Assembly: GCA_021234155.1 (NCBI GenBank)
Contig: JAJEKV010000036.1
Coordinates: 1,994,777-2,058,776, forward strand
Direction of reading: 5' to 3'
Length of the DNA: 64,000 nt
Source: Isoetes taiwanensis
Lineage: Eukaryota; Streptophyta; Lycopodiopsida; Isoetales; Isoetaceae
The notes under the pieces were generated by a model that worked only from the letters and a program-made list of their open reading frames with translations, did not search any database and was not told the origin of the DNA. Of the stretch, positions 11,165 through 61,865 are shown piece after piece. Every line of letters begins with the position of its first letter. Within the stretch, counting starts at the first letter, position 1. The position numbers and the translations under genes are program-made.

Positions 11165-11817
11165 CCCCGCCACTTGATGGGCCAAAGATAATGCTCATCA
11201 TAAAGCGCGATATGCATGCTTGACATGCATGCAAGATGGAACATGCATGCAAGATAGAACATGCATGCAGCATGGCTAGCATATAAGCAAGAGTTTCTTG
11301 GAGAGCTTAGTGGAGAATGAAGACGTGAAGGTTTTTGCAAGAGAAGGCAACCTGGAGCATGAAGGCAAAGAAGAATTGCACTGAGAGGATTGGCGGATCA
11401 AGTGAGGATGCCAGAGCTTGAGAACGGCATCAAATATTCTTCTATCAGGTGGGGTTCGTATTGATTCTTGAGGTGACATATGCTACAACTAGGCATGATT
11501 AGAATATGATTTGTGATGAGAGGATGTGGTGCCTATGTACCGATGTGGAATCAGGGACATAAGGAAGTGATTTTTCACTGAAGTGCTATCCGCCCATGAG
11601 ATGCGTAAAAGGTTAAATCATGCCGGAAATGCATGAGAAGAGGCCGAAAGTGATGCTAAAGGGCCGTTGGGTGTAAATATGGTTCTGCTACCCAAAAAAG
11701 CGCGAAAGCACTAAGCACTTAAAGCACTTAGAGGTCGACAAAAATGTGACTTAGCTCGATCTCGGTTTCCGCTGCCAATTTTCCTCCCCATTTCCTCGTT
11801 TCATTCCCGACATTACA

Positions 11818-14805
11818 ATGAGTTTCCCTAATCCCTTCGGCACACAACAATTGATCGTTTCTCAAGCAACTAATCTTCCCTCAATCAAGCGAAATGGCGA
11901 CGGGGGCGTAAACGGTCAAGATTTTTCGAGATTTACTGACTTATCAAATCCAGGGCTTGCAACCAAGTGCAAAATACAACTGGTTAGTCAAAAAATGTTT
12001 CACAGAACAATGGGAATCGTTTAGCAGGAACCTTCCAATCTAAGTCTGCAATCAAGGTTCGATTTGTCAAACCACATTTGAGGGCCAAATTGGATAGATT
12101 GCGAAAATTTTCTACCCGCATCGGCCCCGTAACAATGAAGTAAGAAAACAAAGCTTGCTTATGCTTTTGCATGGGAAAATTGCCACTGAAGGGTCGGATG
12201 ATCCCCGGGGCATAAGATCAATTGGGCTGCATATGGCGCCACGAGGTTGTAATTTATCCAAAATGCAGGCCCGAAAAAGAAGGTTGAAAAGTAAAAGTTG
12301 AAGTGGATTTGAAGCCCGATATTTCGCAAAAGAAATTAGTAAGTCTATCCTAGATCAGAATGATTTGAAGCATAACCCGCAATTAGTGACGTAAAGAATT
12401 GGTATGCTTGAAAATAAAACGGCAGAGATGGGAAAGGAAATGCAAACTCTTGTTGTTAACTTGCAATGCCGATGAGAAGATATAATGACAAGATCTATAA
12501 GACATTGTCCGATAAAAGAATTTCTATTGAAGAGCTTAAGTCCAGAGGATTGCAGAGAAGAAGGCTTTGGTTAGCACAATGGAAATGGAGATTTAAATAA
12601 AGGGAGTTGGAAAGGAAGTCGATGTTTGAGGAGCACGATATGAGTCGTTGGAGTCTATTTGCAAAACCAGAAGATCCGCATCTTCTTGTGAAGAAAATTT
12701 CATTGGAGGCTAAATTGGTTGAAAAAGAGATCGAGATCACTCTACCAAAGAACATTTGAGCAACCTTGAAAGTTTGAGGGAGGATAACCAACACTCCTTT
12801 ACGCATCAACACTATTAAAAGAACACTTCCGGTTTTTCAAGAAAGTTCTTGTATCGCTTGTGGTTTAACATTTCATGATAAATACAAAATGTCATTAGTT
12901 TTGGAATGTCAACATGAGTACCATTTGATGTGTCTTTGCATTGTTAAGAGAAGGGAAATGTTTGAAATGTGAATCACATATTCTCGAAGATCTTTATGCT
13001 GAACTTGGGATGACTACTCCAACAGAATAGAGCAAAGTTGCTTCTTTTGATCCTATAAAATTAACAAGAAAACGATCCGGGTCAAACACGCTTAGGGTTG
13101 ATTTGGGATCTAATGTAGTTCGAGGCGGATGAAGTTCATGATGATGTTTACTTCAAATCCCTTCTACTAGCTCAAAGAGGAAGAAAAAGCAAGTTGTGAT
13201 TCCTGATTACATTCCGGATGAAGTGAATTTAGGATGTAAAGATGTGAGTCCAAGGTACCGAGAAGTGCCAAAGTTCTAAAGTGGGGATCGTAATTGGAGG
13301 CGCATTATTGGGAATGATGACAATGAAGTTGACCATGTGTTAGATACTTCAACAAGTAAGAAGAAACTGAAAGAGGTTAAGAAGAAAGGCACAGAAGGGA
13401 CAAGTAAGAAGAATCTGAAAGAGGTTAACAAGAAAGTGGATCCAATCAGAAAGTATCCATTGAGGAAGAGAAAGAAATTTGAATCTGCGTATGTGGGAGG
13501 ACCGTGAGCTGCCAGAAATAAGATTCCTCATGTTGATCTTACATTTGGTCAAGGCATTCAAGTGGGAGAATCAAGATGCAAAGACAATCTGAAGGTATAA
13601 ACATTAATCTTGAAAAGTAATGGATGCTCTTATGGGAAAGTCAAACATCTCTTTGAGAGCACTAATTCATAAGTTGTAATGTTCGGTATTCACAAATCGT
13701 CCCCAATCAAGAGGACTTTTGTGTTTCCAATTTAACTTCCAGGTCTACATATGACTTTTTAATTTGAATTCATCCTTTAATTTATCATTCAAACTTGTAT
13801 TCACTTAATTAATTGTCTAACTAATAGGTCATCCGACTTGATAAGCACAATTGTTGACAAAGTAGTTCTACAGATGGGGACTTCACCGTTTCCTATCTAA
13901 ACTACCAGGTTTATGAAACTTTAATTTGAATTTATATGTGTGTATTATTTTGTTATGGTTGTATTTACTTAATTAGTTGGCTGTATTTTAGGTCAATCGA
14001 GGTTGCAAAAGCACAAGTGCACCTGACATGCAAGTAATACCTAGTATTCAAAAGAAACTTTTGATACTAGATCTCAATGGTGTGCTGGTGAAGACCATTA
14101 TGAAAAAAAATGCAACCAAAGAAGAATTAAGAAGGCTAAGTTCTCAATTATTGAGAGCATCAACCACAAACAAACTTGTGGTATTCAAAGGGCCAAGTTC
14201 AAGTTGAGGAGGTGACCAAATTGTTTGACATTGCAATTTGGTCCTCCATGAATAGCTTTAATGTGAATGAGGTTGTTACAGTTATAGATCCTTCTTATGT
14301 AGAGAACTTTGTATTTGTTTGGGACCACACAGTTGTGATGAGATGCCTTTCAAATGGCCTATTCATAGTGCAAATCCAGTTTTCATGAAGCCAACGTGCA
14401 TATAAAGTCTATGAAGCTTTCCACAAAGTATGGGAAGAATGTAATTCTTACTTGAGATGATTCAATATACAAGACTTTTTGTCTCCACCATTCACTTCCA
14501 TCATGGTGCCTACTTTTGTTAATGATGAGAATGATAATATTTTGAATAGTTACTTGCTTCCAATACTTCAAAGGTTGCGAGGTTGAAGACATGACCGATG
14601 TCTTTGAAAAAGAGAAACCGGCGTGAAGCATACACAAGAACGTCCCTTGGTGTTCTTGATGCACTATCTGAATTTGACATTGGTCAAGATCGTAAGGAAA
14701 TTAGTGAAAACATATTGCAAGGGGATGGAATGGTTAGTGGAAAATCATGGTCATATTTTCAGTTCTGATCAGTTGGTTCAGCTTTTGAAACATATGACAG
14801 TTTGA
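11818..14805 (+). pseudogene. F1: coiled coil, RING-like, basic region, FCP1/NIF-like phosphatase
   Basis: It starts 149 bp inside the TIR with ATG (MSFPNPFGTQQLIVSQ). A coiled-coil-like stretch covers about 12470-12770 (EELKSRGLQRRRLWLAQWKW; KKISLEAKLVEKEIEITL). A RING-like finger at about 12847-13000 reads CIACGLTFHDKYK, ECQHEYHLMC, then CLKCESHILEDLYAELGM after a shift. A basic region lies at 13340-13530 (KKLKEVKKKG; RKYPLRKRKKFES). A HAD phosphatase of the FCP1 / NLI-interacting-factor type starts near 14040: KKLLILDLNGVLVKTIM, FDIAIWSSMNSFNVNEVV, FVWDHTVVM, NPVFMKP, and a DDSIYK near 14455. The second catalytic Asp is Asn (DLN), as in the plant DLNG subgroup. Introns and frameshifts break it. 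Its role in transposition is unknown. Confidence 0.7.
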
Positions 14806-15051
14806 AGTGTACTTGTTTATTTCCATTTTCTACATATGCCTCAATTTTGGACAATAGAGGCAATACTATATGAGTGCAGAAATGCCTCAATTTTGTATAC
14901 TCAATGATATAAATGCTGGAAGATATGTGTTTGTGGCTATCCAATTGTTTGTCTTTGTTCTTTCAAACAGGTTTGGAGTCTCAAATTACAATGTATGATG
15001 TTTGTGAATGCTTACAATACCTTCATAATGTGAAGGTAGGTGGAAGACTAC

Positions 15052-18000
15052 TCATAATGTGCTGGTAAGTGTCTTACGCCATGATAAAAAATTTGGATGA
15101 TCTGCATTTGCAATCATATGAAACTTAGAAAGTCTGACAAGATGGCTATATACACTGGCCACTGGCATGTCCTGCAACAGTTCAAAAGTTAGACCACCAT
15201 CAATCTGCTTATAGTAGTGTCCTGTCACAATAACTTCTTCAATCCCAAAAACATTTCCCCATTCATCCTTGTAATCTTCTAGCAAAGTAGTCTTTGCTTC
15301 AGTGCATTTTAGTACATAGAAATCTACCCCTTCATCATTCCCTTCTTCAGCATTTACAGCAAAATTGTCACCAACTTCTATCATGGAACTCATTAGACCA
15401 TCTTCATCCTCCTCTTCTTCTTCCTCACCATCATACTCGGCTTCATCTTGCAGATCAGTGCCATCACCTATACTCTTAGGCTCTTTCAACTTCAGCTCAA
15501 TCTTTTCCCAATCACCTATTCGACTCATACTGATGCATTTATCCCACTTAAATTGAGTGCAGTAGTTGCAAAAGCATGACAAAGTTCTATGAGCTACCTT
15601 CAAAGAATTCTCCTTGTCACATGGTCTTATGCAATGTAGCTTTGTTGTTCCCTTTAAAGTATGACATTCAAATCTGTCTGATCTATCTATCTTTGAAGAC
15701 TCAATTTCCCAGAAATACCGTAACAATATGATGAACGTAAGTGCTTGAAGTGCTTTACACCCAAATTTCATGACAATCAAGAAACTTGCAAATACCTTTC
15801 AAAGAATGATGAATTACAAAAAGGCACGCATTGGCGTTCCTTTTTAAAGTGAGGCATGAGAATATCTATGATCTATCTATATTTGAAGACTCTACATCAT
15901 AGAAATACCTGTAACAATAAGTGCTGTAAGTGCTTAGGTGCGTACAGTGTTTGACAACCAGAATTCATAACAGGCAAGAAAGTTAGCAAGTTTCTAATAA
16001 AGTAGAATTGCAAGTAAACATAGAATTTACCTTTTGATATCAATTATCGATGGATGATTTTGAAAGTACCATTGGAGAAATGCAACCACCTCCTTTGCAC
16101 ATTGCAATTTCCAGCCATTATACTTCATTTGCTCTTGAGTTAATATCCTTTTTATAACTGCTCCAGCACCATCATGCTCACCTTTGCCATGTGAACTAGC
16201 AAAAAAATTCCATAGAAGCTCCTTTCCCATTCTCCCATAAAACCTAAAGTGGAAAGGTCTCGAAGACTTGAACTGTGTAGAACATCCATCACTCCAAAAC
16301 ACATGTTTCTTATATTCAACTCCGATACTTGCCAGCCAATCAGCATGCATTTGTAGACAATGTTGGACATATTCTGTGTCATGTGTTTTGTCATCACTAA
16401 TATAGAAATGAGTTTCCTTGACAATACCTTTGAGAGTTTGTTTCCTTCTCTCTTTGGCTGAGTCCTTTTTCTTCTTGCATTTCTCTTCCTCTTTCTTTTT
16501 TCTTTCTTCTTCTTCTTCTTCTTCTTCTTTCCTTATCCTTCTGTAAGTTATATGCACTAGAATTGACACACGGTCGGTATGCCAATGACAAGATTGAGCT
16601 TCCTGTTGGATCTTAAATCCATAATTTTCAGCAAAATCTATAATATAGAAACAATGGTATCATCTTGAAGTGTTTCCAAGCATTTCTGAATTCCTTGGCT
16701 TGCCAATGAGCTCTATAATTATGTGGCAAAAAGATTTCATTGTCTTTGTTGCATGCTCATTAAATTCAAAAGGACTACCAGATTTAGGTTAATCTTGTAA
16801 CCTTGCAGGTGTTCTTAGATGACTTCAAGGTATTCTTCCTCTTCCTTTGGACTTCTTCTTTGCCATGTTAAAGTCAATTGATCAGCTCATAATATGGAAG
16901 TATACTTGAATCATGCTTTTCAGTAGTTACTAATGCACTTTCCAATATAATTCAAAAGTCATTACCTTTTTCAAATACTTTCCAATTCACAATAATGATA
17001 TTCTTCTTATTCCTCTCTTTAGGACATGTTGGTAACTTTTGCAATACATTATAGCAAACTATTCAAATACAAAATAACATTACAGGTTGAAACAAATGAA
17101 ACCATGTACTCACTTCTTTAAGCCACACTTTGTACAATTTTGCATCGAGACATGCATGTTTATGCCACTCATCACTCTCATCCTTTTTGGCGGACCACCA
17201 TTCTCCAATAGTCACTACTTGATTTGATAGTGTTCTCCTTGGCCATGCAGATCCCCACAGGTACAATCCTTATGAACACCATGTAGATCTGTCCTCATAT
17301 TGTTGATGGCTGCCTTACCAAATTCAAGATGCAAATGGTATTGGCAACAACAAGTCTCCCTTTCTTGAAGTTTTCTTACATAGCTTGGCCAGGTTTCTCA
17401 AAAGCTTCTTTGGGACATCTTTATATTAGGATGTTCCTTCTTGAAAGCAAGGTACAATTGAACCGAACACAATGGCGGTCATAAATTTAATTATTTAAAC
17501 ACATAGAGAATGAAAACATTAGTGCATAACATGGTAAATTTTGGCTTGAAACTAATTACATGTCATTTTAAGACAAATGAATAGGATGATCAATTTTCTC
17601 ACCGTTTTCAGTCAAATGCTTCCTCACATGCTTCTTGTAAGGAGAAACTCTAGTATTCTCATCTTAGAACTTCCTCACAATGGCTATTTCTTGGTGAGAA
17701 TGCATCATTTCTTTTCTTTCTTTCAAACATTGACCAACGGCCAGTTTCAGACTCTGCAAGTACACGTCTTCTAAATGCCATGGAAATACTTTTTCTTGGA
17801 ACAGATAGAACCCTTGAAAGATGAGATTGATTAATCCCTCGATGAAGATCTTTTGCCATTTGAAGGGGTGCTTTTCTTGCTTGCGGGTGTTCTTATCATT
17901 TTTGTGATTGCATTGTGTCTCTAACATTCACAAAGCAGGGCTTTTCATTCTGGCCAAATCCACGGGATCACGGTACATGTGCTTGCATAGGCAAATGCTT

Positions 18001-18240
18001 GTTTCTTTTGAAAAAGTCTTTGAAGAACTCTCCCTTTGTCCAAATCCTCGAAGCGTTCCTCACAATATGATTAAAAAATCATCTAGCTCTTTTGAGAGTT
18101 CTTGCAATCTTCTTTGGTGAGCCATCCTCTTCTCTTCTTATCATTTGGTGGTTTGTTTTCCTTTTCCCTTTCTTTCATTCTCTTTCTCGATTCTCTTTTC
18201 TACCCTTGGACATATTTCTATGCGACAATGGGATGGCGAT
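15052..18240 (-). pseudogene. T1: putative RNase H-like transposase of E1
   Basis: Reading N to C on the - strand: a Lys/Glu-rich start; RNASRIWTKGEFFKDFF; SPYKKHVRKHLTENGEKIDH; AFKKEHPNIKMSQRSFE; a Cys-rich part (RETCCCQYHLHLE...CTCG; WHKHACLDAK); IDFAENYGFKIQQEAQSCHW; SILVHITYRR; a Glu/Lys tract from (CTT)n; KETHFYISDDKTHDTEYVQH; FWSDGCSTQFKSSRPFHF; WNFFASSHGKGEHDGAGAVI; then AHRTLSCFCNYC; and a C-terminal domain (DFYVLKCTEA; VTGHYYKQIDGGLTFELL) with stop at 15052. By recall, this architecture matches uncharacterised transposase-like proteins of fish, corals and some plants. The Asp of DFA, SDG and HDG are the candidate acidic triad (inference). Introns are present, and a shift precedes DFAENY. 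Confidence 0.8.
15365..15480 (-). other. Acidic linker in T1
   Basis: A Glu/Asp run (GEEEEEEDEDG) joins the Cys-rich module to the C-terminal GDNFAV...FYVLKC domain. The complementary + strand gives long Ser/His frames that are shadows. Confidence 0.7.
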
Positions 18241-18259
18241 TGGTCCCTTATATGATCAT

Positions 18260-20370
18260 CACAGGGTCCTTAATTACATTGCCTCCTTTGGTAGGTGATA
18301 TTCTTCAATTCACGGAGGAGGAAGTCAAAGAAGGATGCGGCATCTATCTAATGGCAAGTCTCCACGATCTTCAAGGTTTGCAAGCGAAATTGCTTAAATG
18401 GGGTCCGCTGTGCTTCCAATCATCACTACTCTTTTAAATCAAGCTTTGCAAAGGCTTGCCAGAAACTTGGGCTTTGTCGATGGAGTCGTACCAATTTACA
18501 AAGCGGTGATAAGCATGACCCTTCTAATTATCGCATGATCATGGTAAGTTCCATATTTTCAAAGCTCTTAGCCAGTCTTCTTGAAGCGATTGACATCATG
18601 GGCGAGAACATCTTGGTGTATGCGTCTTTGTAGGGACTGAGCGAGGCTTTTCGTCCATGCCATTCTACAATAGACCATATTTTCACATTGCGCATGCTTA
18701 TTGAACATAGTCGAAGTTTGAAACAAGACCTCTATATATGCTTTGTAGATTTTGCATACTGCTTTTGATACAGTACCACGCGAGCTTCTTTGGCAGCGCT
18801 TGCAGGCACTTGGGGTTCCACAAGATCTTCAAAATGCAGTTTATCGGCTCTATGAAAGGGTTTTTGCTAAATTTCCAGCATCAGGTACTCAAATCACTAG
18901 CAATATTGAGTTCTACCAGGTTGCCCTTTATCTCCCTACACTTTTGGCTTGTACATTGATCAATTGGAAGAATGGCTTGATAATCATGGCGGCGGAGGTC
19001 CACATTTTGTGCACTATATCATTAGGCAACTTATGTATGCCGATGATGTTTCACCGGCACATACAATTGCTAGTATCACGACAACATTTACATGCTCGGT
19101 TTACGTGAGAACAGTGTCGTGTTAATCTGCAAAGACCAAGCTTTTGGTAGTTCAATCTTCGTCACAATGTTCCCCTATGCACTATGATGGCCAGCGAAGT
19201 TGAAGTTGTAGATAGCTACAAGTATCTTGGTGTAGAATTACGTAGAACACACACTGCAGGAGACGATGTATTACCAAGCGGGTGGGCTGCTGGATGGAAG
19301 CACTCTATGCAATGCAAAACAATTGTTTTCGTACGAGAAATTCATGATTAGCCCGCGGAAAGCCCACTTGTTTTGAGGGCTTTGGTAGAGCACTTTTTCT
19401 TGTATGGTTACGAAGTGTGGGGGCACGCCATTAGTGCTAGTGCTTGGGAGGCTTGGGCGGGTGCAAAAGTCCTTTCTCACTACAGCCTTGGAGTTAAAAA
19501 GCGATTTGCCCTATGCTATTCTTTTACAAGAGCGAGGGTTTTGGCCTCTTCAACATTACGCCATGAGCGCCATCTCCACTATATATGCATAAGGTGCACC
19601 ACATGGGCGATGTTAGGTATCTGTTCTTGCACTTGCCATGGCTGAATCTCTTAAGCGTTTGAAGCGATGTTGGAAAGGCATTGCACTACATGGTTTTGCG
19701 TTGGTACATTACAACCCGAGCCTTTGCGATGCTTGCCGGTTCACGATCACGAGCTTTTGCAACAATATCTTAATGGTCGTTTTTCTCAAAGATATGGGGC
19801 CAGGTTACTTTGGCCCAAGTGGCTGGTCATTATCATGCACACATAAATCCCACTTTGGCACCGGGGCCCCAAACTTATTGCTTGCTTCATTGTCAGGAAC
19901 AAGCTTGTAGCTATTGCATCAATCGCCGAGGGGGTCCCACAGGTCTGGTTGAGGCAATTAGATGGGGCGGCGCAAGTGCGCGAGAAGCGAGACTATGTGC
20001 CTGTTGCCAGTTACAGGTTATTGAAGATGAAAGCCATACTCTTCTGAGTTGCCCTGCTTTTGAGATAGTCCGGAATCATTTTTCGACCTTAGCATTCCAT
20101 TCCACGCTTCCACAACTCTCGGGCACCATCGTGCATGACTTGGCATTATACATACTTGAGGGTTCTAGATAAGCGTCTGCAATTACTGAGCCCTCGGTTA
20201 GTCATTATCTAAGCTTGTCTAGTATCATCATTCTGCCGCAAAGTTTTCCCTTGAAAACCTTTGGCGGGGTTTTTTAATCCTAGTAGTAATGATTGTACTA
20301 GCCCATTGTATGGGTCCCATGACCTATTGGTCTTTTGCGTGGGCGTTAAAAACTATTCTATTCTATTTTT
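18260..20370 (+). mobile_element. LINE B (non-LTR retrotransposon) inside E1, decayed
   Basis: The + strand in shifting frames reads FTEEEVKEG, then NGKSPRSSRF (finger region of RT), DPSNYRMIMVSSIFSKLLA, STIDHIFTLRMLIEHS, FDTVPRELLWQRLQALGVPQ, the catalytic box RQLMYADDV at about 19027-19053, DSYKYLGVELRR, LYGYEVWGHA, FLTTALELKSDLPYAILLQE, and a C-terminal zinc-knuckle-like ARLCACCQLQVIEDESHTLL followed by SCPAF. It ends with a stop at 20170 and a short TTCTATTC-rich tail near 20354. This differs from LINE A, whose YADD is followed by TFLFL and which has a zf-RVT C-terminus. Many stops; not active. Confidence 0.78.
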
Positions 20371-20799
20371 CCTCGGCTTCAAATTCCGGATAAATTTGCC
20401 TATTGTGATCATCGATGCTTTGAATTGGCGTGGTAACATGATAGTTTAGAATTGGGTGGGATTTTGATTGGAATGGGAATTGGAATTGAGAATTGGCCGT
20501 GAGCTCTCGACCATGACAACGAGCTTGGGAAGAATGACAATCCAAGAAAGAAAACTTTCCTCGAGAATCCCGCCATCGAGGAGATCCGATCATCAGGATC
20601 CGCCAAACTTGACAATTGCTCTAGCAATTGCGAACACATCCATGTCATGGGATCCCCCTCACTCAGGAACATGCATACTATTTGGAGTAACAACCCCGAG
20701 GTGGGTTGAGAAAAAATTCATCGAGCATGCACCACCTAAAGCACCTAAAGCACTTTGTGGGAAGGTGCTTTTTGGAATATGAGAACCATATTTACACCC
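20371..20799. other. Right subterminal region of E1
   Basis: Non-coding in appearance, ending in AAAGCAC-like repeats and the right TIR. The + frame 20468-20782 is open but has no similarity I recognise and runs into the TIR. Confidence 0.5.
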
Positions 20800-25814: not shown

Positions 25815-26697
25815 GACCACGTTTTGGCCTCCAAAGCGTAAACCCCTGTGGGTTGCTAGGTTATTGTGGGGTTTACGTTATGGAGGTCGAGTTTTATTCG
25901 AGTTGCACTTGAGACATGGTCGAAGCTGCTGATTGAAAACCGAAGCAATAAGCCCGGCGAAATGGGGGTTTGGATTTACCAGAGGCGGAGCTTTCCTACG
26001 ATTGCTCCTCGGGAGGGCAAATGCCAATGCCTCCCTTCGGAACCGGTTTCCCTATCAAACCGTTGAATTCTCCATTCAAATAACTTGCTTGGCGGGCTCA
26101 AAAATTCAAGATCTGTAGGAGAACATATAAAACCGCCAAAGTGTCCTGCGGTCGACCCGTCGTGTAGAAACCCAAGTGTTTTTGTCGATTCGGGCAAGTA
26201 CAAAGGCCCCGGAATGGAAATTTGACATCGCCATGTCGTCGAAACAAAAATGAAATTACCCTAGGGACCAAGTTACGGTCATTTTTTGCAGCAAAAGAAA
26301 CACGAACCCTCTACATGGCAGTATTCTACACCCTCCGCTAAGGCCAATTCACTACGAACGTGTTGGACATGAACTACTTTGGCGCTTCCGGGAGCGGGGT
26401 GGTCTTCTGCCCACGAAACTTGGTCTCTAGGGTAATGTCGATGTTTCGAGTCCGTTGGCAGAGTCAGATCACAGTTCGGGGTGGGAGAGTTGCCCGTCCG
26501 TGGCCAGGGACCCTCCAGAGAGGACCTTTGGGTCGAACTTCTTCTGGAAGGTTTTAGGGCTCCGTCATCTGGCGTCAACGCCCTCCCACTACCTCATGAC
26601 ATTGTGCAAGATCCTGGTCCGGTCGGCTGGGGTATGGCCTCAAAAGCGCAAACCCCGTGCCTTGCCCGCGTTATTGTAGGGTTTATGTTATGGAGGC
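25815..26697 (+). repeat. Inverted repeat unit, forward copy
   Basis: An ~880 bp unit bounded on each side by a ~65 bp imperfect hairpin (GGCCTCCAAAGCGTAAACCC ... GGGTTTACGTTATGGAGG at 25817-25885 and 26637-26697). Its body (TTTTATTCGAGTTGCACTTG to AAGATCCTGGTCC) reappears in reverse complement at 26970-27838. No coding sequence is recognised; frames such as 26481-26771 and 26279-26578 are antisense overlaps. Confidence 0.82.
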
Positions 26698-26969
26698 CAA
26701 AACGTCGGTCGATTGCACTTGGAATCGGGTGTACCTTTTCGAACATGCATGAGCCATGGCAACTAAAATAACGGAGACTTTGGATCTATTGGCGATCCGA
26801 ATCATTCAAAAAAAATTTGCTACTATAAAATGTGTTCTTGACTTCTAATTGCGACCTTTGGGAGGAGGATAAATCCAAACCCCATTTCGTCGAGTTTCTA
26901 TTGCTTACGGTTTTCAAGCTGCGGCTTCACCGACCATGTCTCAAGTGCAACTGAATAAAACTTCGACCT

Positions 26970-27838
26970 CCATAGCGTAAACCCTACAATACCCTAGCAT
27001 ACGGGGTTTTACGTTTTGGAGGCCATACGGTCGATTGGACGAGGATCTTGCACTAATGTCATGAGGTAGTGGAAGGGCATTGGCGCTTAAGACGGAGCCC
27101 TAAAACCTTCCGGAAGAAGTTCGACCCAAAGGTCCTCTCTGGAGGGTCCACAGCCCGGGGACGGGCAACTCTCCCACCCAGGCGTAATCGACTACGCCCA
27201 ATGGACTGAGACATCGACATTACCACGGAGACCAAGTTTAGGTGGGCGAAGACCACCCTGCTCCCTGGCGCCAAAGTAGCTCATGTCCAACACGTTAAAT
27301 GAGTGAAGTGGCCTTAGCGGAGGGTGCGAGAATCTTTGCCATGTAGAGGGTTGTGTTTCTTTTGCTGCAAAAATGGCCGTGTAACTTGGTCCCTAGGGTA
27401 ATTTCATTTGTTTGGGGCGACATGGCGAAGTCAAATCTCCATTCAGGGCCTTTTATCTTGCCCGAAACGACAAAACACTTGGTTTTCTACACCGTCATTG
27501 CCGGAGGACACTTTGCGGTTTGATATGTTCTCCGGACGGATCTTGAATTTTTGAGCCTGCTTTCGAAGCAAGTTACTTGAATGGAGAATTCAGCGGGCCG
27601 GATAGGAAACCGCGTGTTAGGAAGGGAGGCATTGGCATTTGCCCTCTCGGGAGGGAACTGCGTGGTAGGAAGCACGCCTCGGTAAATCCAAACCCCATTT
27701 CGTCCGGTTTCTATTGCTTCGGTTTTCAAGCTGCGGCTTCTCGACCATGTCTCAAGTGCAATTGAATAAAACTCGACCTCCATAGCGTAAAACCCTACAA
27801 TAACCTAGCAACCTACGGGGTTTACATTTTTGGAGGCC
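26970..27838 (-). repeat. Inverted repeat unit, reverse copy
   Basis: Reverse complement of 25815-26697, again bounded by the same hairpin at 26972-27030 and 27776-27838. Short indels separate the copies. The spacer 26698-26969 also contains a partial A-end fragment (26868-26969) in reverse orientation. Confidence 0.82.
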
Positions 27839-28058
27839 ATACCACGGGTCGGATTGGACCGGGATCTTGCACAATGTCATGAGGTAGTGGGAGGGCATTG
27901 GCCCGATGATGGGAGACCCTAAAACCTTCGAGGAAGAAGTTCGACCCAAAGGTCCTCTACGGAGGGTCCTTGCCCGGACGGGCAACTCTCCCATCCGGGG
28001 GCTGTGATCTGACTCTACCAACGGACTCGAAACATCGACATTACCCTGGAGACCAACT
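27776..28058 (-). repeat. Third, truncated unit of the inverted repeat family
   Basis: It begins with the same hairpin, continues with the end containing GATCTTGCAC and GGTAGTGGGAGGGCATTGG, and stops matching at about 28058, just before a G/T-rich run. Confidence 0.78.
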
Positions 28059-28490
28059 TTCGTGGGGTGGGAGATGGTAGAGTGTAGTGGTGGGAGTTGG
28101 TGGGGTGTGGTGTGGGACATGGTGGATGCCAACAACTCACCACTCACCAGACCACACATATCTCATCTATCATTCTGGCATCCATTGCACGAAATGCCCC
28201 CGAGATGGCATCATAGAGACACAACATGACAATGTGACCAACATGATGCAAAATGATAGTAGACATACCTGATTCTTGAAGTGGATTTGATGTTACCTTT
28301 TCTGTGTTGATAGAAACAATCTAGGTCAAGCTTGAGATTTTTTTCTGTTATAACACCACTAATAATTGAACATATCTGCGATGGCATGTTTTGGTCTCAG
28401 AACATTGCTCTGCTTTTCTGTTTTGATTGTGAGTTCAGATTGAATGTTTGGTCTAGAGGAACCTGATTTGGTTTTTTCCCTATCATCGAG
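28059..28490. other. Spacer, probably 5' or intronic sequence of T2
   Basis: A G/T-rich run (28058-28135) is followed by ordinary AT-rich sequence ending in an acceptor-like tract (TTTTTTCCCTATCATCGAG) just before the readable T2 frame. The left end of E2 could lie here, but I found no convincing TIR. Confidence 0.35.
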
Positions 28491-30800: not shown

Positions 30801-30805
30801 CCTTA

Positions 30806-34520: not shown

Positions 34521-34527
34521 AGGTTGC

Positions 34528-41054: not shown

Positions 41055-41059
41055 GAAAT

Positions 41060-41764: not shown

Positions 41765-41804
41765 TACAGCTCCATTCATTCAATGGAGAAGGCATCCATT
41801 TGCT

Positions 41805-42334: not shown

Positions 42335-42485
42335 TATTTTCGCACCGCGTGGCGGACGGTCGCGAAATAGACCTTCCCACGTAATGTGGAATAGTCATTT
42401 CGCACCGCGGGCCACGGTCGCGAATATTGGTTAGTTGTAAGCACGTGATAACACGGTCTTCGCACCGCGGCCACGGTGCAAAAGT
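42335..42485. repeat. GC-rich palindromes, family P2, three units
   Basis: Units at 42338-42368, 42397-42427 and 42458-42485, each close to TTTCGCACCGCGGCCACGGTCGCGAAA, spaced about 60 bp apart. Confidence 0.85.
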
Positions 42486-51920: not shown

Positions 51921-52348
51921 TCACTGGTCTAGCACATGTAACTTGATTCGAGCACCTTTCTTGGGAACTAGAATAGCACAAATTTGAGTAGAGAATACAA
52001 GTGACTTTGGCTCGTTTATGCACAACTCATACATCAACTTTGACTGAGGCTTCTTTCTATAGTAAATGCCCTCCACAACGGTTTCACCTCTCATAAACAA
52101 GTTTCCATTCTGCTTGAAGTCATTTTCAACTTCAAATTTTGGCTTGGTGCATAGCAACATCCAAAATACAGAATCCTCCTCATTCCCTTTAGGTGCGACA
52201 AGCGCAAAGTTGTCTCCTTCTCTAAGTGCTTCTGCAAGTACATTTGCCAAGGTTGAATATAGTGGCCTGGTAGACTTGCGGGTCTCTTCCACATCTGCAT
52301 GAACATTGGAGGATGGTTCAACGACTACAAGGTTCCATTCATCTACAT
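51921..52348 (-). pseudogene. T4: C-terminal half of a transposase gene, cut by E3
   Basis: The - strand frame from the E3 junction reads VDEWNLVVVEPSSNVHADVE, ALREGDNFALVAPKGNEEDS, FWMLLCTKPKFEVENDF, ETVVEGIYYRKKPQSKLMYE and SLVFSTQICAILVPKKGARI, ending at 51921. It aligns with the T1 C-terminal domain (GDNFAV; FYVLKCTEA; VIVTGHYYKQ; FELLQDMPVASVYS). Its upstream part lies at 61866-62111 beyond E3. Removing E3 and one ACAT joins them in frame (WDMCENKLYVDEWNL). The family P3 array and the 51.7 kb direct repeats would be the 3' flank of this older element (E4). Confidence 0.82.
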
Positions 52349-52369
52349 GGGTAAAAGCATGAAAGGGTG

Positions 52370-52445
52370 TACGTACATCGTACTGAATTGAAGGGCAATT
52401 TGTGCTTTTTGGGGGTACATTTTAGATGTACATCAAGATACTATG
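52370..52445. repeat. ATGTAC repeats, family P4, at the left end of E3
   Basis: GTACGTACAT followed by TACATTTTAGATGTACATC just inside the left TIR; the first cluster of this family. Confidence 0.6.
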
Positions 52446-52658
52446 GTTTGTCGTTTTGTGTCGGATATGCAATGATTGCAAGATCATCCCGACATTCCCC
52501 GAAAATTCTTGGTTAACCCTTAGAACCACCAGAACCAATTGAATGGATCCGTCCCCTCCTTTCGAAATTCCCCTTTCACGGGGCCGAACAGAAGGAATTC
52601 GGAAGCAAACACATGCCAATTGAATCTACAAGAAATACAAATCAATTTCAATCTATTC

Positions 52659-55590
52659 ATGGAGGGTGAGAATTCCAATGGAAGTGATGGTTCTAAGCGC
52701 AAGTATGCCGACATTGGCCGATGTTATGCCACAAAACAAATAAAGCGTGTTGGCAGTTGGGTGGATTGCATCCTCGATTCAACGGCAAGCGCCCGTCAGA
52801 TCAAAGATTAGTTTTTGTGATCGTTTCTTTGCAAGATGACAGTTTTTTTACGTTTTCGAACTGTAATTGGAAATCCTTCGAAGTTATTGTTATGAAATCA
52901 ATGATCGAAACTTGAAAGATGGACTTCAAGAAGTAAAAGTCTGCTAATAGCAAAGATAAATTGGCTGCAAAACATTCATCGTTTATCAATGATTGTTGGA
53001 AAAAAAGGAGATATAAACAAGAATGTTTCTTCAAAATTGCTAAAGATCTGACCAAGAAATTTATCCAAAGCTGCGGCAAGAAGGAAGATAATGTCATTAA
53101 ATTGGAGCAAATGTATGGGCTTTGGCGGGAAGGATGCCAAGATCAAATAGAATCGATGATTCAATCAAATGTCGAGGTTAAATGGAATTTTGGCTTGACA
53201 ATACCAAAAGTTTCACCAAAGGTTAGAGATGTCATGAAGAGGAGAACACAAGCAATACAATACCTTGATATCTCCGCGGGTTTGCTCTTGTAATTGAATC
53301 AATTCAGTCTTGGAGTTTATGTTTTCTTCCAAAATTCTTTCATGACTTTATTACGTACATTCTAGTTACATTCGAAAGTGACACGTTAATGAATACACAT
53401 GGTTCTCATGAAATGTATTGCATTTTACATTGTTTACATAGTAGCAGAAATCTTTGCAGTTGATGTGCTATTAGGTACTTTTTAGATGTACATCCATTAA
53501 CAGATTACATGTCCATGCAATTTGCATTTACATGTACTTGAATATCAAAATTACATCATTCTACATTTTAGTGTACTTTCGGGTAATGAAGCCAAACAAA
53601 TCGGACATATGTACATTAGTTGTACTAATATTGTAACATTAATGTGATGTACTAATATTGGAACATTAATTAGATGTACATTGGATGTACATTGATGTAC
53701 ATTGGATGTTGATGGAACTGTTGGTACGTACATTAGATGTCTTACAGTACATTAGATGTACATTAGATGTCGATAAGAGTCGGTGGAACTGTTGGATGGA
53801 CATTTTATGTACATAGAACATACATTAATTGTACAATAGTATAGTTCAATACTCTTTTGGCATCCGTTGCCGACATCATTTTGCTAACATGGTCTTTAAT
53901 GCTTTTGTTATTGCGCACCGAGCTTTATCAACGGTTTGTATATCGTAATCCACGATGCAAAAATTAGCCGACCGGCGGTTCGAGTATCCGAAACCTGATT
54001 GCATAAGGAAAATTGAAGGAGAGAAACACATGTTGTTGTGTCAAACATGAGCAAGCGATCCTGCATGCGAAAGGCCTTCAACGATATGAGGAGATCCCTA
54101 CATGTTAATTGCACTTGCTTGTACAGTAGTGTCCGTGCATCGGCAAAACAATGGAGTATGTCAAGCAAACAAGAAAACTTTTGATAATGTTAGTATCTTG
54201 TGGAGGTCAGCGGTTTTGCGAGAAATATGTGACGGATGAATGGCATAAACTAAAATGCATCAAAGGCGAATGTGATGAATGTGGAGTGAAGAAATTAGAC
54301 ATCCTGTCCAAACGAGGAAGATGGAATTAATGTGGATGGCAAGTATATGCATATGTCAATGAGCCATCCAAAAAGGTACATCCGAAGGCTTAGATTAGTT
54401 GATCGAATGACAAAGCATCTGTTTTGTTAAAGAACATGAAAAATCAGCTTGCTAAGTTTCTGAGATCATAACTTTACAAAGACACCTTTGGCGAGCAAGC
54501 AGTTTAAAAGATGTGTTGAGAAACTCCGGATAATAGTGTGTTGTCTATTGTTGACTTTGCTTGAGAGAACTACACATTGAAACCGAAGGGGGACGGAAGT
54601 GCAATCCGAGCATTGGAATCTGATCAAATTAGTATTTTGGTCCATATTTCAATGATGAAAATAGAAGGTAAGCTTAAAAAAACAAAGTGCATTTCTATGT
54701 TTCCAGGATGACAGGAAGCATGACACTCATTTTGTGCAACATGGTTTTAAATTACATTTGGGGTGGCTTAAGAATAATGGAGGTGGACACATAAACCTTC
54801 ATTATGTGTGGTCGGATGGTTGTGCATTTCAATTCAAATCACGCGTGCATGGTATGGAATCAGAGATACCATGTTGAAAATAAAATTCGAAAGTGATATG
54901 GAATTTCTTTGGATCCGGCCATGGGAAAGGCACACATGATGGCGAGGCTGGTATAGCAAAGTTGTGGCTTGAGAGCGAGCGAGAGAAAACAAAAATGGCA
55001 TGCCGGTGGCAGTCGTGAAAGCTTGGCTTGTGCGGTTTTAAGGGCCAAGGAATCGGATTGTGAAAGGGTGTTTTGGGAGGTTGGAAAACAGATGTGAACA
55101 GCAAAGAAGCATTCAATTGCAAGACTTTACACGGTACTCGTGCAGATACATTCGTAGGTCAACTATAAACCCAGCCAGATCCAACAAAGTTGCTATGCAC
55201 GGTTCACTCTGCTTTTGTGATGCTTGCATTAACTTCAATTGGTTGAATTGTGAGAACATTAAACATTGTGGAGAATGGTCTCTAAAAGTTTGGAGCCCAC
55301 AGATCATATTGCCTCTCGTGTTGAAGCCGAAAATGATGTGGATGTTTTGTATGCAGAGGACTAGGCTGGTTTAGATGACACTTTGTAGGCAATTTCGGAT
55401 GTATTTGTGTCTTTTTGCAACACACCAGACAATGTGGAAGGTGTTTCATACTATGTTCTCATGTGCACCAGGGAAAACCATGCATTGGAAGAAGATTCAA
55501 TTGATGACTATGGAAATGAATACTCACTTTGGCACTAGTGTCATTGAAGGACAATATTATGAACTAATCGGGCTGCCACAATAAGTATAA
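52659..55590 (+). pseudogene. T3: transposase of E3
   Basis: It starts MEGENSNGSDGSKRKYADIG. In order, over frameshifts: QECFFKIAKDLTKKFIQSCG, EQMYGLWREGCQDQIESMIQ, MRRSLHVNCTCLYSS (Cys motif), LKCIKGECDECGVKKLDIL, FGEQAV, TPDNSVLSIVDFA then ENYTLKPKG (54525-54590), VQSEHWN, ISILVHIS, DDRKHDTHFVQHGFKLHLGW, YVWSDGCAFQFKSR (54806-54845), WNFFGSGHGKGTHDGEAGI (54897-54955), NPARSNKVAMHGSLCFCDAC, GEWSLKVW, VEGVSYYVLMCTREN. The same motif order as T1 and T2, with the acidic residues of DFA, SDG and HDG all present. Several single-base shifts; inactive as read, or the sequence has indel errors. Confidence 0.8.
53460..53840. repeat. ATGTACATT repeats, family P4, inside E3
   Basis: More than ten ATGTACATT/TTAGATGTAC units between two T3 coding parts, with no coding sequence, so probably intronic. 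Confidence 0.8.
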
Positions 55591-55603
55591 ACCGCTTCCT
55601 ACT

Positions 55604-55925
55604 AAGAATGTTTTGGTACCGAGAAATGCGTGATTGGGGTTCGAATCCCATTCAAGAAAGTAAAAACACAAATTTGAAGGGGCAAGCACAGCATTTCACT
55701 TGCCGATGAAGTCCATGAGACATTGTTATCACAACTTCCAAAGAATTGTAGATGACATGGACTAAGTCGGATCCGTAGTACTTTCCCGAAATATTGTAAT
55801 ACTTTGTTATAAGAATCAAGAACTGGACTACTTGAAGTGCATTATGTACATCAATGTACATAAGATGTACAACAGATGTATATCTTATGTACATCTTATG
55901 TACATCATTTGTACATTCCGAAATA
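55604..55925. repeat. ATGTAC repeats at the T3/F3 convergent junction
   Basis: A cluster at 55845-55920 (ATCAATGTACATAAGATGTA and TCTTATGTACATC). A T-arm-like GGGGTTCGAATCCCAT occurs at 55635-55650, but no tRNA cloverleaf surrounds it. Confidence 0.65.
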
Positions 55926-56671
55926 TTATAAAAATTTGTTAAGTGTAAGTTGATTAGAATTGAACACAAGAAAGTTGAATTGCATAAACACTAAAATGGT
56001 TTCGGTCATGGCAAAGATAAGAAATGGATGTGTTTTCATGTACAAATGGTTGATATATTTATATTGTGGACATAAATATAACACACCCAAAAATGAGCAT
56101 GGCTCATAATTCATGACCAAGCTTCAAAATGTCAAGAGGAGCCCTGATATCTTATGACTATTGCATCATGTCTTCCAGCCGCTAGAGAGGTCAAGAGATA
56201 TCCTCTAAAGCAGTAGTCCATGCGGTTTCTATAGCACGCCACACGGCAAACCTTTCCATCCTACATAGCTCGTGATCTTCCAGACACGTGCCTTCCCCAA
56301 GGGTTGTGCAACAAGTGATTTTTTGCCAATGTACCTTTCATGGTTGCTCGTTCCTCATAATTTTCAATTTGCTCAACCTTTTCCCAAAGTTCGAGAACAG
56401 TAAAGATAGAGGCGATAATCGGTCCCCAACCCTATGTACTTGCAGCTTGTGTTGGTTTGTATTACCTCCGGGTGCAGTGAGAACTCTATCTCTTAGTTTC
56501 TTAATAGTCTTTTGTGTTTCAAATCCATTCATCTACAAAGCAAATGAAGATCACTTAATTATGTATACACACTCATAATTGTACCAATAAGAAAGACAAA
56601 GAAGAATAGAGTACTCAAGTGCAATGAACAAAAACTTTGATACATATATTCATAACATTTGAATTTGTACA

Positions 56672-59600
56672 TCAGTCAAAGTCTGTACCAACAATGGGCC
56701 AGTCGAGAGGCCAATAACATGATGGCAGTTTCTCCATTCCTTGCTCCGTATATTGACTAAATTTAGGCAGCAGAGCACCCAAGTTGTTGCCATAGTTTGC
56801 CAGCAAAATCTGTTCCACCTGCTCTGATATGCCATCTGCTGCATTAGTCATTGGATGCTCTTTCACATAAACTATACCATCTTCAGCCATTTTGAATCCA
56901 TTAAGCCATGGAATGAGCTCCATGACAAGCAATCTGTCGCCAGCTAATATCGGTGTCCAAGAGAAAGGACATATGTAGCTTCATATAGGATTCAAAGTGG
57001 ATTTGTATCTTCGTCGTCGACGATCTGTATGTCCATAGTACTCTGGGTACTCTTTCCATACCACGACTAATGGTTTCACAAACAACCCCTTTTGAGGTTC
57101 AAGAGGGTGTTTGTGTGGTAGTCCAACACTTGCCCCCGGTCAGAAACAAACTTCAGCTTTATGGAAAAAAGCATCACAAATATGTTCCACAATTGGTTGA
57201 AGATTTTTAGAAGTGAGTGAAGACCAGATGGCAACATCAAACCCTTCTCTTACAAATGCTAACAAATGATGCTAACCCCGGCCCGCATTAAAAAAACACA
57301 TTTCCTATATTAAATTGAAGCTCATCTTTCCGGATCATTTGGTATCTTGAGTTAATATTTTCATTCTTGTGCACACTCTTGCCCAACCACGTAATTTAAG
57401 TCAAAGATAACGAGCTTTCTCCTCGAATTAGATGATTCATGTCAGCAAGAAAACACTTGAGATTCACAATTTATAATTACATTTCGGACACACAATTGAG
57501 AAAACACATTGATAATTACACGATTGTTATTTGCACAGTGTAAGTGAGACAAATAAATTAATTTTTCATTACTTATTGAGTACAAAGAAGCTCTGAGCAT
57601 GGCTCATACAAAACTGTAATTTACAAACAAGTCAAAGGGACTATCTACCCTGTGTAGGAACAATCGCTTGTATATTCATCTCGCCTTCTACAATTAATGC
57701 CTCCATTAGATGATCCCTCCGTGACTTGGCATAGGCATCGATGAACCAATGGGTGTCATCTCGCATGGTGCACAAGTATTAGAGGACTATACCAACAAAT
57801 AACTAATAGGAAAATAACATGTTCTACTTACAAAAATGGAGCTTGGCTGTGCATCAACCCAAAGATCTATGAATTTGTGCATGTAAGCCGCAATGTACAT
57901 GCAAGGGTTGCCGGTACTAGTTTCGGCATTTTAGGACGTAACATGTGAGCATCAAAGTTCTTCCTACCATGGTTTAAGCTGTTGGATCCGAGCATCATGT
58001 TATTGATCACAAGCTTATGAAACCCGCAAAATTGCAATGTGAGAATAAATCAAGCATAAGAAATTGCAATATGAGAATAATCAAATCATAAAAACAAAAC
58101 AGTAAAAAACTCTTACTTATACGGACCACTTTAGCATCGGTACATAGCCTTTGACGAGAGAGAGGATCTGTATACTTGGGCTAGCTATAGATGGAAAAGA
58201 GCTTTTCATTGGACCAGCAAGCACAAGTATTGCCAATGCCACATTTGGGCCTTGCGTAACAAGGGGATTCACCGTAAAGTGCCATACAATGTGCCCGAGT
58301 GACTTGTAGGGGGTTTTTTTGACCCATTTCCATAATACGTAAGAGGTAGGGGGTTTTTGCCACTACTTGGGGGTAAACTTTGTGCGGAAGGGGTCTAATT
58401 TGCCTTTCAAGAAATCGTGATCTGTGGGGGTTTTTTGATCACCCTATGCACGCACATGGCATACCCCCTTACTATAAATGAACCCCGGGTTCTGCGTAAT
58501 TGGAACAAATATGTATTGGCATCTTGCAATCAAAATGCCATCCAGCCCTTCCTTTATGTTAGTGTTCATTGCATCTCCCGTTCTTGAGGGAATTCACAAA
58601 AATTGCGGAAGGTGTCCGGTCGAACCGTAGAAAAACTTGTGTTTCCAATCAGATGGAAGATCGCTACAAAGGTACACGCACACAAATCCAGATTACATAT
58701 TAATACATAAGATGAGTGACTTAGGGAATGAAATAACATAAATATGTTGAAATGCTAGCCTACCTCCCATAGACATCTACCATCTTAGAGGTCAAGTCCG
58801 ACTTCCCGTGAGAACTCGTCAACATCACTTTGAAAGATAGAGGGTGCGGGCTTAGGAGGACAGTCCCTATAAGGAGTGAATGGAACCAACCTTTTCAATC
58901 AGGGTTCACTAAAACTGCATACAAGGAAACAACAAAGATTAGCAAAAGAATATATCTATTGTAATCAATTGTATATTACTCACCTTGTAAATTCATCATT
59001 GTTTAAAAAGATCTTCTCGAGGACTGCTGCACCTTTATTTGTTATCACATCAATATTTGCTTGTAGATCCTCTTCCTCTTCCGGGTTCGACTCGGAAAGG
59101 ATCGGGGATCGCCTTCCTTCACGGCCCCGTGATCGTGTCCTATGTACAAAAAAAATGTGGTTAATTACCATAAACCGAGATGTTTAACAAAATTAGTTCA
59201 TCTTGGACATACCTCTTTCTAGGTGGTGGTGGCACTTTTTTGCTGGAGATTTTCTTTTAGGAGGACATTTTTTGTTCTTGGGAGATTTTTGCTGCTTTTT
59301 TCCTTTTGGAGTGCCATCACCAGCATTCTTTTGCCTCCTCTTTGAGTGGACTCAACTACCAACTCAGCTTCCTCCCCGGTATCTCCCGGGTTAAAAATCG
59401 GATCCGGTCCTTTGTAGCTTCTTACATGTAACAGTCGGGCTGGGACCGCAGATGATCTTTGAGACGAAGTTTAATCTTTCTTAGCTTCTCCAATTACTAA
59501 TTTAGCACTTGGTGATGAAAGATTTTCTACATTCGCGGCTGATCATTGAAGGCTCGCGACCGCAGACCGCTTTAGCTTTCTCAAGTGCCATCCTCTCAAT

Positions 59601-61617
59601 TTCCTCAACTTCACTTTGCCATGTTGAGAAAGGTGCAAGGTGCATTGTTCTATTAGGCGGGCAATCGTAAAAATGTCATTGGTGATCCGGAGCTGGAAGG
59701 TAGAGGGTCTCTGATTCGGTCCCCGCTTATTATGCTCAATAAAATCAGAAGAGAGTCGATGCGGATGGCTCAAGAACATCAGCCATTAAAGTCGCTCCGG
59801 GATAGAACAAACCTCATCTGCAAACAAACAAATGATCTAAATTTCAATAGACATAAAAGAACATGAAAAATGTAACTAATGAGAAATATCGGTACATTAC
59901 GCCAAGCATGTACATTTCATGTACATAGAATGTACCAAATGTAAGTAACTACATTTAACTATAGCCAAATGTACATGTACATGTTCCTCAATGTACATAA
60001 AGGTACATCAATGTACCCGGATGTACAATCGATGTACCCGGATGTACCTGTGTATCCAGCTAGGGAATGTAGATCTATGCCAAAAAAAAAAGCACATATA
60101 TATGTAAAAATGCACATACTTATGAATCCATCTACGATGCACTCTAAAGATAAATGCATGTACATCTATTTGCAGATGTAGACTCCATTAGAGACATGTA
60201 CAACCGATACAACTGCAAATTCAAGCTCAAAAATAAAAGCATTAATAAACAAGCAAATATATGCCTATGTACCTCGCTACGGATGTATACTAAAAGTTAT
60301 ACATGTACAAGGAATAGCAATGCATCGAAAAGCCATACATGTAGAACTATGCGATTACAATAACAAATATGAATGAAGAGAAATATAAGTTTAAATTAGT
60401 TGAGAGCAATGCATACCTTTCACAATGTGGAAACCAAGCTGAATTGAATGCCCTCATCCCGGATGCAACCTTTTATGCATTGCTCTTTCATGGACGAGAT
60501 AACACAAAGGAAGAGGCAATAAGCATCTCTCGCATGGAGCTAGCAACAACAAACCAGTTTTGCCAAAGCCTTGGCCAACAGTACATGAACCTGAATGTGA
60601 TGAATCGCTTTATAGAAGTAGCTCCTGGGGGTAGGGCCTGGTGCGAGAACAATAGGTCCCGCTCCTCCCATGAAATCCAAAATCTGCGGAATGCCTTTGC
60701 TGAACCAATTCAATGCAATTAAGTTTTTCCTTTGCTTGTTCAATTGAGATTTCATGCCTTTCAATTTCTTTTTAGTTGCTTCCCTCGCAAACCAATGTCT
60801 AGCTTAGAAGAGTGTCGCTCTTTATCATGTCTACTCATAACCAAGTCTTCCAACTTGTACTTCAACACTCAAGATAACTTGATTTCCGCCAGGATCCCGG
60901 GACAATTTGTCAAATTCTTGTTTTGTCTCATCTATTTTCTCGGCAGATTCGCTGCGCAGATCTTGGATAGCATATCCTTTCTACCCTCAATCCTACTGAT
61001 GACCTTCAATGCATCCCTCCTTTCTTCCAAAGGTTTCTACTTCATTCAATAGGTTAGTTTTCTCCTCCAAACTCCATGCTTAAGTGAATCGCTATTGTGT
61101 CAACATCCGGCCCAGAATAACCTGTGGCTCTAATATTCTCACTGCAATGATGTCCCGCTTTGATAGTTGAGGATTTACCTCGCTGTGTGGTCCTCTCAGA
61201 ATTCTAAAATGAGGGTTTTGGTAAAGATCTTTGGCTACCCCAGCCACGCCCATCCAATCAACAAGCCGGCCCCTTCCAAGTGAAGAGCAAATGCCTCGCA
61301 AAATAGGTTGAAATATAATGGTTTGTAACCGCTTCTTGCCATATAAACCAATTCATAATATTTAAAAATCATCTTCCATGCCTCCGGATTCTCCCTTCCT
61401 TGAATCCTCGCCTGCTTTTTGAGCCTCACCCCATACCTCGCTCATAACCATCTCTAGGTTGGGTATGTGGGCCTCGTGATGTTTCACTTTTATGTCTTTG
61501 CTTCATCACCTCGTAACCCAAACGTAAACTCATTGAGGTAAAATTCCACCGCCGGCACTGCATCTTGTTACTGGTGGGACAGCAAGCACTCATCCGTATT
61601 TTGGGCCATAGGGGCTA
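56672..61617 (-). pseudogene. F3: E3 gene ending in an FCP1/NIF-like phosphatase
   Basis: The start is likely MAQNTDECLLSHQ near 61610. Parts in order on the - strand: NPEAWKMIFKYYELVYMARS; a coiled-coil-like KPLEERRDALKVISRIEGRK (about 61040); a basic region (KGKKQQKSPKNKKCPPKRKS, about 59260); acidic SPILSESNPEEEEDLQ (about 59080), also found in F2; a Cys cluster CMALYGESPCYARPKCGIGN (58270-58200); exons NPCMYIAAYMHKFIDLWVD and THWFIDAYAKSRRDHLMEAL. Then the HAD phosphatase: KLVIFDLNYVVG (57417-57382), GFDVAIWSSLTSKNLQPIVE, KPLVVVWKEYPEYYGHTDRR, IPWLNGFKMAEDGIVYVKEH, and a stop at 56672. The DLN motif matches F1. A RING is not clearly visible here. Introns and several frame changes. Confidence 0.65.
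59885..60310. repeat. ATGTAC repeats, family P4, inside F3
   Basis: Clusters of ATGTACAT, GGATGTACC and TACATGTAC at 59890-60065, with weaker units to 60310. They lie between F3 coding parts, so probably intronic. Confidence 0.8.
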
Positions 61618-61865
61618 GATGAAGAATCGTGGATCTAATTCAAGGTAGAAGGTATGATAGTGAACGAGGCAAACCAAGAAAGAATTTGGGAAAGAATTTC
61701 AAAATCCGAGCACCAAGTGGGTTCGGGGAGTAGTGGATAGCCATTAATCATGGCAGCTTACTAGTCGTCATGATGATAAAGCATATTCCAAAATGTGTAT
61801 TCTGGTGACATATGTATATGTACAAAAAGGGCTACACTTATAGACACCCTTTCATGCTTTTACCC

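Follow-up and report, generated by a model that had tools for sequence, protein, structure and literature searches.

Here we describe a family of DNA transposons with terminal inverted repeats (TIRs) in the lycophyte Isoetes taiwanensis, in which two genes, T and F, lie tail to tail between the element ends. They were identified in a stretch of 64,000 nucleotides of contig JAJEKV010000036.1 (positions 1,994,777 to 2,058,776 of the forward strand, assembly GCA_021234155.1), hereafter the window, to which all positions below refer unless a locus is named. We consider it likely, with a probability of roughly 0.82, that these are autonomous cut-and-paste elements in which T is the transposase, probably of the Sola superfamily or of a sister to it, and F is an accessory gene kept by selection.

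Two elements in the window, E1 and E3, carry this reading, and parts of both genes were mapped in them with hidden Markov models (HMMs):

11669-20799, no strand: E1 element, TIR family 1 (GGGTGTAAATATGGT...), 9131 bp, with convergent T and F genes
11669-11698, + strand: E1 left TIR GGGTGTAAATATGGTTCTGCTACCCAAAAA, 0 mismatches
12778-13027, + strand: RING-like Cys/His part of E1 F (HMM, E 2.8e-18)
13992-14385, + strand: FCP1/NIF-like phosphatase part of E1 F, motif LLILDLNGVLV (HMM and motif scan)
15055-15798, - strand: C-terminal Cys and BAH-like part of E1 T (HMM; structure model and fold comparison)
16030-16756, - strand: RNase H-like core of E1 T, with DFAENY, SDGC..QFK and HGKGEHDG (HMM; fold from the homologue L021)
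20785-20799, - strand: E1 right TIR, an exact inverted repeat of the first 15 bp of the left TIR
51924-52348, - strand: C-terminal part of a fourth T, left of E3 (HMM; joined frame)
52349-61865, no strand: E3 element, TIR family 2 (GGGTAAAAGCATGAAAGGGTGT), target-site duplication ACAT, 9517 bp
54665-55535, + strand: core and C-terminal parts of E3 T, broken frames (HMM)
56653-57420, - strand: phosphatase part of E3 F, motif KLVIFDLNYV at 57420 (HMM over 56653-57271, and motif scan)
61866-61990, - strand: continuation of the fourth T right of E3, outer limit approximate (joined frame)

With TIRs at both ends, F at 12778-14385 (+) and T at 15055-16756 (-) by HMM, E1 is the GGGT-TIR element with two convergent genes that a preliminary description of this DNA had proposed, and the motifs which that description had assigned to T (DFAENY, SDGCxxQFKS and HGKGxHDG, the last as HGKGEHDG) were located in the E1 core at 16030-16756. 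The boundaries of E3 were fixed by alignment with two full copies, L039 and L040, and its TIRs, its ACAT/ACAT flanks and its T (+) and F (-) parts likewise bear out what had been claimed for it. When the flanks of E3 are joined with one ACAT retained, an uninterrupted T reading frame runs over the junction, therefore E3 did split a fourth T, as first suggested.

Both TIRs recur through the genome searched (1,658,258,908 bases in 1110 contigs), the family-1 pattern GGGTGTAAATATGGTWNTGCTACCCAAAAA in 447 exact copies (231 forward and 216 reverse) and the family-2 TIR GGGTAAAAGCATGAAAGGGTGT in 796 (388 + 408), while the reversed control patterns gave 0 each, which excludes a chance origin of the patterns. 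From among the first ~100 listed places of each pattern we chose 20 facing TIR pairs of family 1 and 15 pairs of family 2 (10 miniature, 5 of ~9 kb). The family-1 pairs comprise five of ~9 kb, twelve of ~1.6-1.7 kb and three of 0.27-0.28 kb; by HMM, T and F parts are present in all five ~9-kb elements fetched by their TIR pair, and a TIR pair not enclosing both genes, which had been named in advance as speaking against the family, did not occur among them. Full copies measure 7.6-9.5 kb, with TIRs of 22 to ~34 bp.

Identical 4-bp flanks were found in 31 of the 35 TIR pairs read (18/20 in family 1, 13/15 in family 2), in agreement with the 4-bp target-site duplications (TSDs) proposed earlier; where TSD length was measured, 27 of 30 pairs gave exactly 4 bp and three gave 0. 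The TSDs are varied 4-mers, e.g., ATGC, TTTG, AGCT and ACAT, with GTGG at the family-2 copy L040. The window also holds a short relative of E1:

40558-40816, no strand: miniature derivative of family 1, 259 bp, TSD TTAG, empty site in L092

At the paralogous locus L092 the flanks are as at this miniature, with a single TTAG and the insert absent. This empty site and the position of E3 within a T gene are direct marks of transposition. On the other side stand the pairs in which a TSD is absent (4/35: L008 and L009 in family 1, L072 and L090/L091 in family 2), the copy L039, whose flanks CAAG/AAGA show no clean 4-bp duplication, and E1 itself, where a perfect TSD is not visible (CGTT/GTTT).

A third group of T/F remnants occupies 28.5-33.56 kb, with T at 28467-30251 (+) and F at 32338-33108 (-):

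28467-29325, + strand: T core, broken frames (HMM; blastn 90% to L041)
30024-30251, + strand: T C-terminal part (HMM)
30487-31011, - strand: F phosphatase remnant (blastn pieces 80-85% to L041; the window copy has no HMM match)
32338-33108, - strand: F N-terminal part (HMM)
33529-33558, - strand: right TIR GGGTGAAAGTATGTTGGTGGGTAGCAAAAA, homologous TIR in L042

No left end was found for it in the window. The tail-to-tail pair that had been placed at 28.5-33.2 kb was confirmed by HMM, with the right TIR reaching 33558; its F had been described as having no visible phosphatase, which holds for the decayed window copy and fails for the relative L041, where the NIF domain is present (E 8.3e-12). 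Other ends are found in related loci. The TIR of L042, GGTGAAAGTATG..., has T rather than G as its first base and the flanks AACA/AACA, and the TIR of L024, GGGTCTAAGTTAG..., with TSD ATAG, represents another TIR family that agrees with 4 bp. In L021, L022, L023, L025 and L041 a seed search turned up no TIR pair of the GGGT type; the sole inverted pair of L022, an unrelated 17 bp without a TSD, was rejected.

The association of T and F extends well beyond these copies. The linkage queries were the E1 T core and the family-1 F phosphatase, so the count concerns family 1 and closer groups, and it was made on hand-transcribed lists of 150 of 151 listed T matches and 149 of 151 listed F matches. 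At least 72 of the 150 T matches have a listed F within 10 kb, at a median distance of 1.9 kb, and reciprocally 71 of the 149 F matches have a listed T; with the F positions shifted, 200 trials averaged 0.38 and never exceeded 3, against the 72 observed. In all 72 pairs F is encoded on the strand opposite to T and downstream of it, and HMMs recover the same convergent arrangement in E3 and the third group. F parts were also detected by HMM in 13 of 14 T loci, of which L001-L005 had been reached through a TIR pair and L021-L025 and L039-L042 through a T match or open frame. Training of the F model drew on seven of the 13 (L002, L023, L024, L039, L040, L041 and L042; the phosphatase piece of L002 partly out of frame), leaving L001, L003, L004, L005, L022 and L025 as independent F-positive loci. 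Constant partnership is opposed by L021, which has no F, and by the absence of a listed partner for 78/150 T and 78/149 F among the matches listed; copies of T or F on their own quite possibly exist.

Three parts make up F: an N-terminal one that is conserved, a Cys/His cluster of RING-like type and a HAD domain that resembles FCP1/NIF. Pfam NIF (PF03031) matches F above its cutoff of 21.8 bits in four element groups: family 1 (L002, E 9.3e-13, 48.6 bits), family 2 (L040, E 9.8e-6, 25.8 bits), the third window group (L041, E 8.3e-12, 45.5 bits; the TIR of this group was seen in L042 and in the window) and L023 (E 1.9e-10, 41.1 bits), whose own TIR was not found and whose T resembles that of L024 in alignment. 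FCP1/NIF phosphatases normally have the catalytic motif D-x-D-x-T/V. At this nucleophile motif F has D-x-N in 12/12 matched copies, in a scan that permitted D, E or N, so the DLN-type phosphatase domain first read from the window is upheld. The HAD motifs IWSS (Ser) and KPL (Lys) are retained in all of 14 F fragments, and the Asp-Asp motif in 13 (L061 has AYD). F thus shares these motifs with FCP1/SCP/NIF phosphatases and differs from them in the D-x-N, in the joined RING-like and N-terminal parts and in being carried by a transposon. The D-x-N suggests a binder or an altered phosphatase. The RING-like reading comes from the Cys/His pattern, for which the one external line is a PDB match to RNF13 at no better than E 0.68, a basis that counts against the reading; Pfam matches of the RING and coiled-coil part were all below cutoff, the lowest E being 0.00088.

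Selection on the two genes was estimated in 14 elements picked because their F frame is open, which biases the sample towards intact copies; two of its T fragments are interrupted, one by a single stop and the other by two, and L046 is seemingly frame-shifted locally. Using pairs with a synonymous divergence (dS) of 0.03-2, the median ratio of nonsynonymous to synonymous divergence (dN/dS, NG86) is 0.13 for T (44/91 pairs usable, maximum 0.76, 0/44 at or above 0.8) and 0.26 for F (31/91 usable, maximum 0.92, 2/31 at or above 0.8). Both genes are therefore under purifying selection, and it is this, together with the linkage, that sustains the earlier claim of F as a conserved accessory gene. 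An alternative is that F is a passenger, acquired in a single capture of a host FCP1-like gene and playing no part in transposition. The D-x-N could mean lost catalysis, and two of the closest F pairs reach 0.81 and 0.92. However, the closest pairs as a whole (0.32-0.92) fit decay after insertion, whereas six printed mid-range pairs (dS about 1) lie at 0.19-0.28; these values and the fixed convergent linkage indicate that selection kept F, and the near-complete retention of the HAD motifs points the same way. We therefore regard a mere passenger as improbable.

T consists of four recurring pieces in a fixed order: an N-terminal piece with a helix-turn-helix (HTH)-like stretch, a Cys-rich piece, the core and a C-terminal piece. 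Seven aligned copies share an invariant and distinctive motif set, and D99, D213 and D254 (numbering of the L021 open reading frame, ORF) are among their invariant residues; E252 is not conserved in the E3 family, hence D254 is preferred as the putative third acid. An AlphaFold2 model of the core (L021 with 13 aligned copies; mean predicted local distance difference test score, pLDDT, 61; predicted TM-score, pTM, 0.62) has the element order strand-strand-strand-helix-strand-...-strand-helix, as in RNase H. Foldseek places two chains from a single RNase HII entry at the top (E 2.5e-4 and 3.6e-4). A second look with VIA gave a best Z of 9.3 (root-mean-square deviation 4.0, 148 aligned), and from their titles we take all 50 of the best 50 rows to be RNase H-like, mainly retroviral integrases, with IstA, P element, Mos1 and Argonautes also represented. 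The core is thus probably RNase H-like, with conserved acids that fit DDD, and this modest-confidence model supports the first reading of T as an RNase H-like transposase. The confidence of the model counts against it (a mean of only 61, and below 50 around the third Asp), as do the Foldseek scores (query TM-score at most 0.30 in the best 50, E at or below 0.001 in 2/278), the unrelated folds among the weaker Foldseek rows (hexokinase, MutSbeta, HprK) and, for the HTH-like stretch, a Pfam HTH_SB match at E 0.1 as its sole evidence.

The C-terminus of T weakly resembles BAH chromatin readers in a predicted model (pLDDT 57). From their titles we take 45 of the best 50 fold rows to be BAH-domain proteins, with DNMT1 repeated many times and ORC1, ZMET2, EBS and SHL also present; the other five are HTATIP, a pseudo-chromo domain, two MazF-type endoribonuclease entries and UHRF1. 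The likeness to the readers (DNMT1, CMT3/ZMET2, EBS/SHL, ORC1) concerns residues ~132-241 of the fragment. It is opposed by Z values of at most 6.6, under the caution line of the tool, and by sequence searches of family libraries and PDB, which returned no BAH match, and is accordingly treated as a lead only.

As to classification, several named superfamilies were compared. The TSDs, being varied 4-mers, do not fit the TTAA target of piggyBac and Kolobok. Ginger, IS481EU and IS3EU have an integrase core that is recognisable from sequence, and the T pieces gave no Pfam integrase match at E 1 or 0.5. Academ elements combine their transposase with an XPG nuclease or helicase domain; Pfam showed neither in those pieces of T and F that were scanned, which cover part of the element. 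Most likely, T belongs to the Sola superfamily or is its sister. Sola elements have a DDD transposase, a 4-bp TSD, a length of mostly 2-9 kb, variable termini and TIRs of 11-1124 bp, and they occur in the moss Physcomitrella and are rare among flowering plants, according to the accessible parts of PMC10741241. The TSD, size (7.6-9.5 kb) and TIR length (22 to ~34 bp) of our elements fit this description, as does their occurrence in a non-flowering plant, and DDD is probable. Also on record is Sola1-1_Ec32 of a brown alga, whose accessory gene lies on the other strand from the transposase, although it encodes ParB plus a methyltransferase (PMC12477816, accessible parts). We hold it somewhat better than an even bet that T is a Sola member from an unreported plant lineage, with F as a lineage-specific accessory gained in vascular-plant Sola. 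However, the likeness is by published description and not by transposase sequence, TSD length and size say little about descent, and the accessible Sola descriptions mention neither an FCP1/NIF-like gene nor a BAH-like end.

In the other placement, T would found a superfamily absent from Repbase, as an RNase H transposase that ends in a BAH-like part and lacks named relatives. In its favour are the distinctive, invariant motif set and the searches of T against Pfam, NCBIfam and PHROGs, in which every match stayed under the cutoff or was of the kind expected by chance (lowest E 0.0045, NCBIfam FILTED, 5/7 members), and against PDB sequences, with nothing notable (best E 0.082; none for the C-terminus). 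However, the libraries searched contain few transposase superfamilies and the superfamily-level traits that were measured fit Sola, which makes a separate superfamily doubtful. In the literature no report of such a T/F pair was found, most subscription papers being beyond reach, and neither a BAH domain nor a phosphatase of the RNA polymerase II C-terminal domain appeared in the papers listed as matches. KolobokP resembles our elements in pairing its transposase with a second protein encoded downstream, on the complementary strand, and differs in its TTAA targets and in that this protein is a His-Me nuclease (PMC9587614, accessible parts). The preliminary view that the family is apparently undescribed is not established: none of the libraries searched recognised T, but its measured traits fit Sola. 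F and the BAH-like end look new.

Two contig collections were searched for relatives of T outside the Isoetes genome. None was found in a viral contig collection, and one was found among genome contigs, a decayed copy at 43% identity (L026, contig CAKZGI010000474.1; L043). Binning places this contig with Trichormus, a cyanobacterium whose host habit leads us to suspect that the contig is fern (Azolla) DNA. If it truly is, T would extend beyond lycophytes.

Further observations concern the interiors and neighbourhood of the elements. E1 contains at ~18250-20370 a reverse transcriptase-like remnant of a long interspersed nuclear element with a ctattctattctattttt tail, read by eye as a secondary insertion. 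Family-1 copies have an extra ORF (ENLLADIDHVLKESDKSRYNLRGRVVPEKEKKW...) between T and F (L003:4343-4990, L005:3989-4759, L025:4246-4782), either a nested element or a third gene; the L003 copy had no Pfam match. At L023:7960-9901 the first T/F pair is directly adjoined by a further F end and T part, as if two copies were fused or in tandem. Dense long inverted repeats fill 25819-28066, and the 26-28 kb bin has the highest GC content of the window (0.505). A second repeat family occupies 34237-42424 and beyond, with long blocks 86-94% identical to L092 across ~8 kb. Its 567-aa ORF in L092, with at least 150 scored genomic matches, has a histone H3-like fold (Pfam Histone E 4.6e-18 at 38030-38563, 1.6e-16 in L092 and a weak 0.06 at L021:195-1506), and a neighbouring 579-aa ORF with a CPYC motif could be the transposase of that family. 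A mobile element with a histone-like gene would be remarkable.

Returning to T and F as an autonomous transposon, we picture its working as follows. The Cys-rich and HTH-like N-terminal parts of T would bind the GGGT-starting TIRs, and the probable DDD RNase H core (D99, D213, D254) would cut and join DNA with a 4-bp stagger, while the BAH-like C-terminal domain may read chromatin. F, convergently transcribed and kept by selection, would be an accessory protein, with a role as binder or altered phosphatase and not in cutting DNA. Short miniature derivatives accompany the autonomous elements. Known enzymes of the FCP1 type have the tail of RNA polymerase II as their target, which leads us to guess that F would most likely act on host transcription or silencing, e.g., through that tail. 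A bolder version, in which a transposase with a BAH-like reader and a RING-like/FCP1-like partner counter RNA polymerase II or silencing to license transposition, outside the named superfamilies, seems to us rather unlikely. An accessory gene thought to counter silencing is also carried by TET/JBP fungal transposons, where it encodes a methylcytosine dioxygenase and not a phosphatase (PMC12730594, accessible parts).

These elements may explain part of the repeats of the Isoetes genome, since they are numerous: one TIR alone has 796 exact copies, and E1-type T gave a rough 16,029 first-look candidates, 150 of them scored. Few features allow the part of an element in the silencing conflict to be read directly, and the accessory genes of DNA transposons are one of them. 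With a selected phosphatase-like partner and a transposase that possibly reads histone marks, targeting and the escape from silencing would become testable in a seed-free plant.

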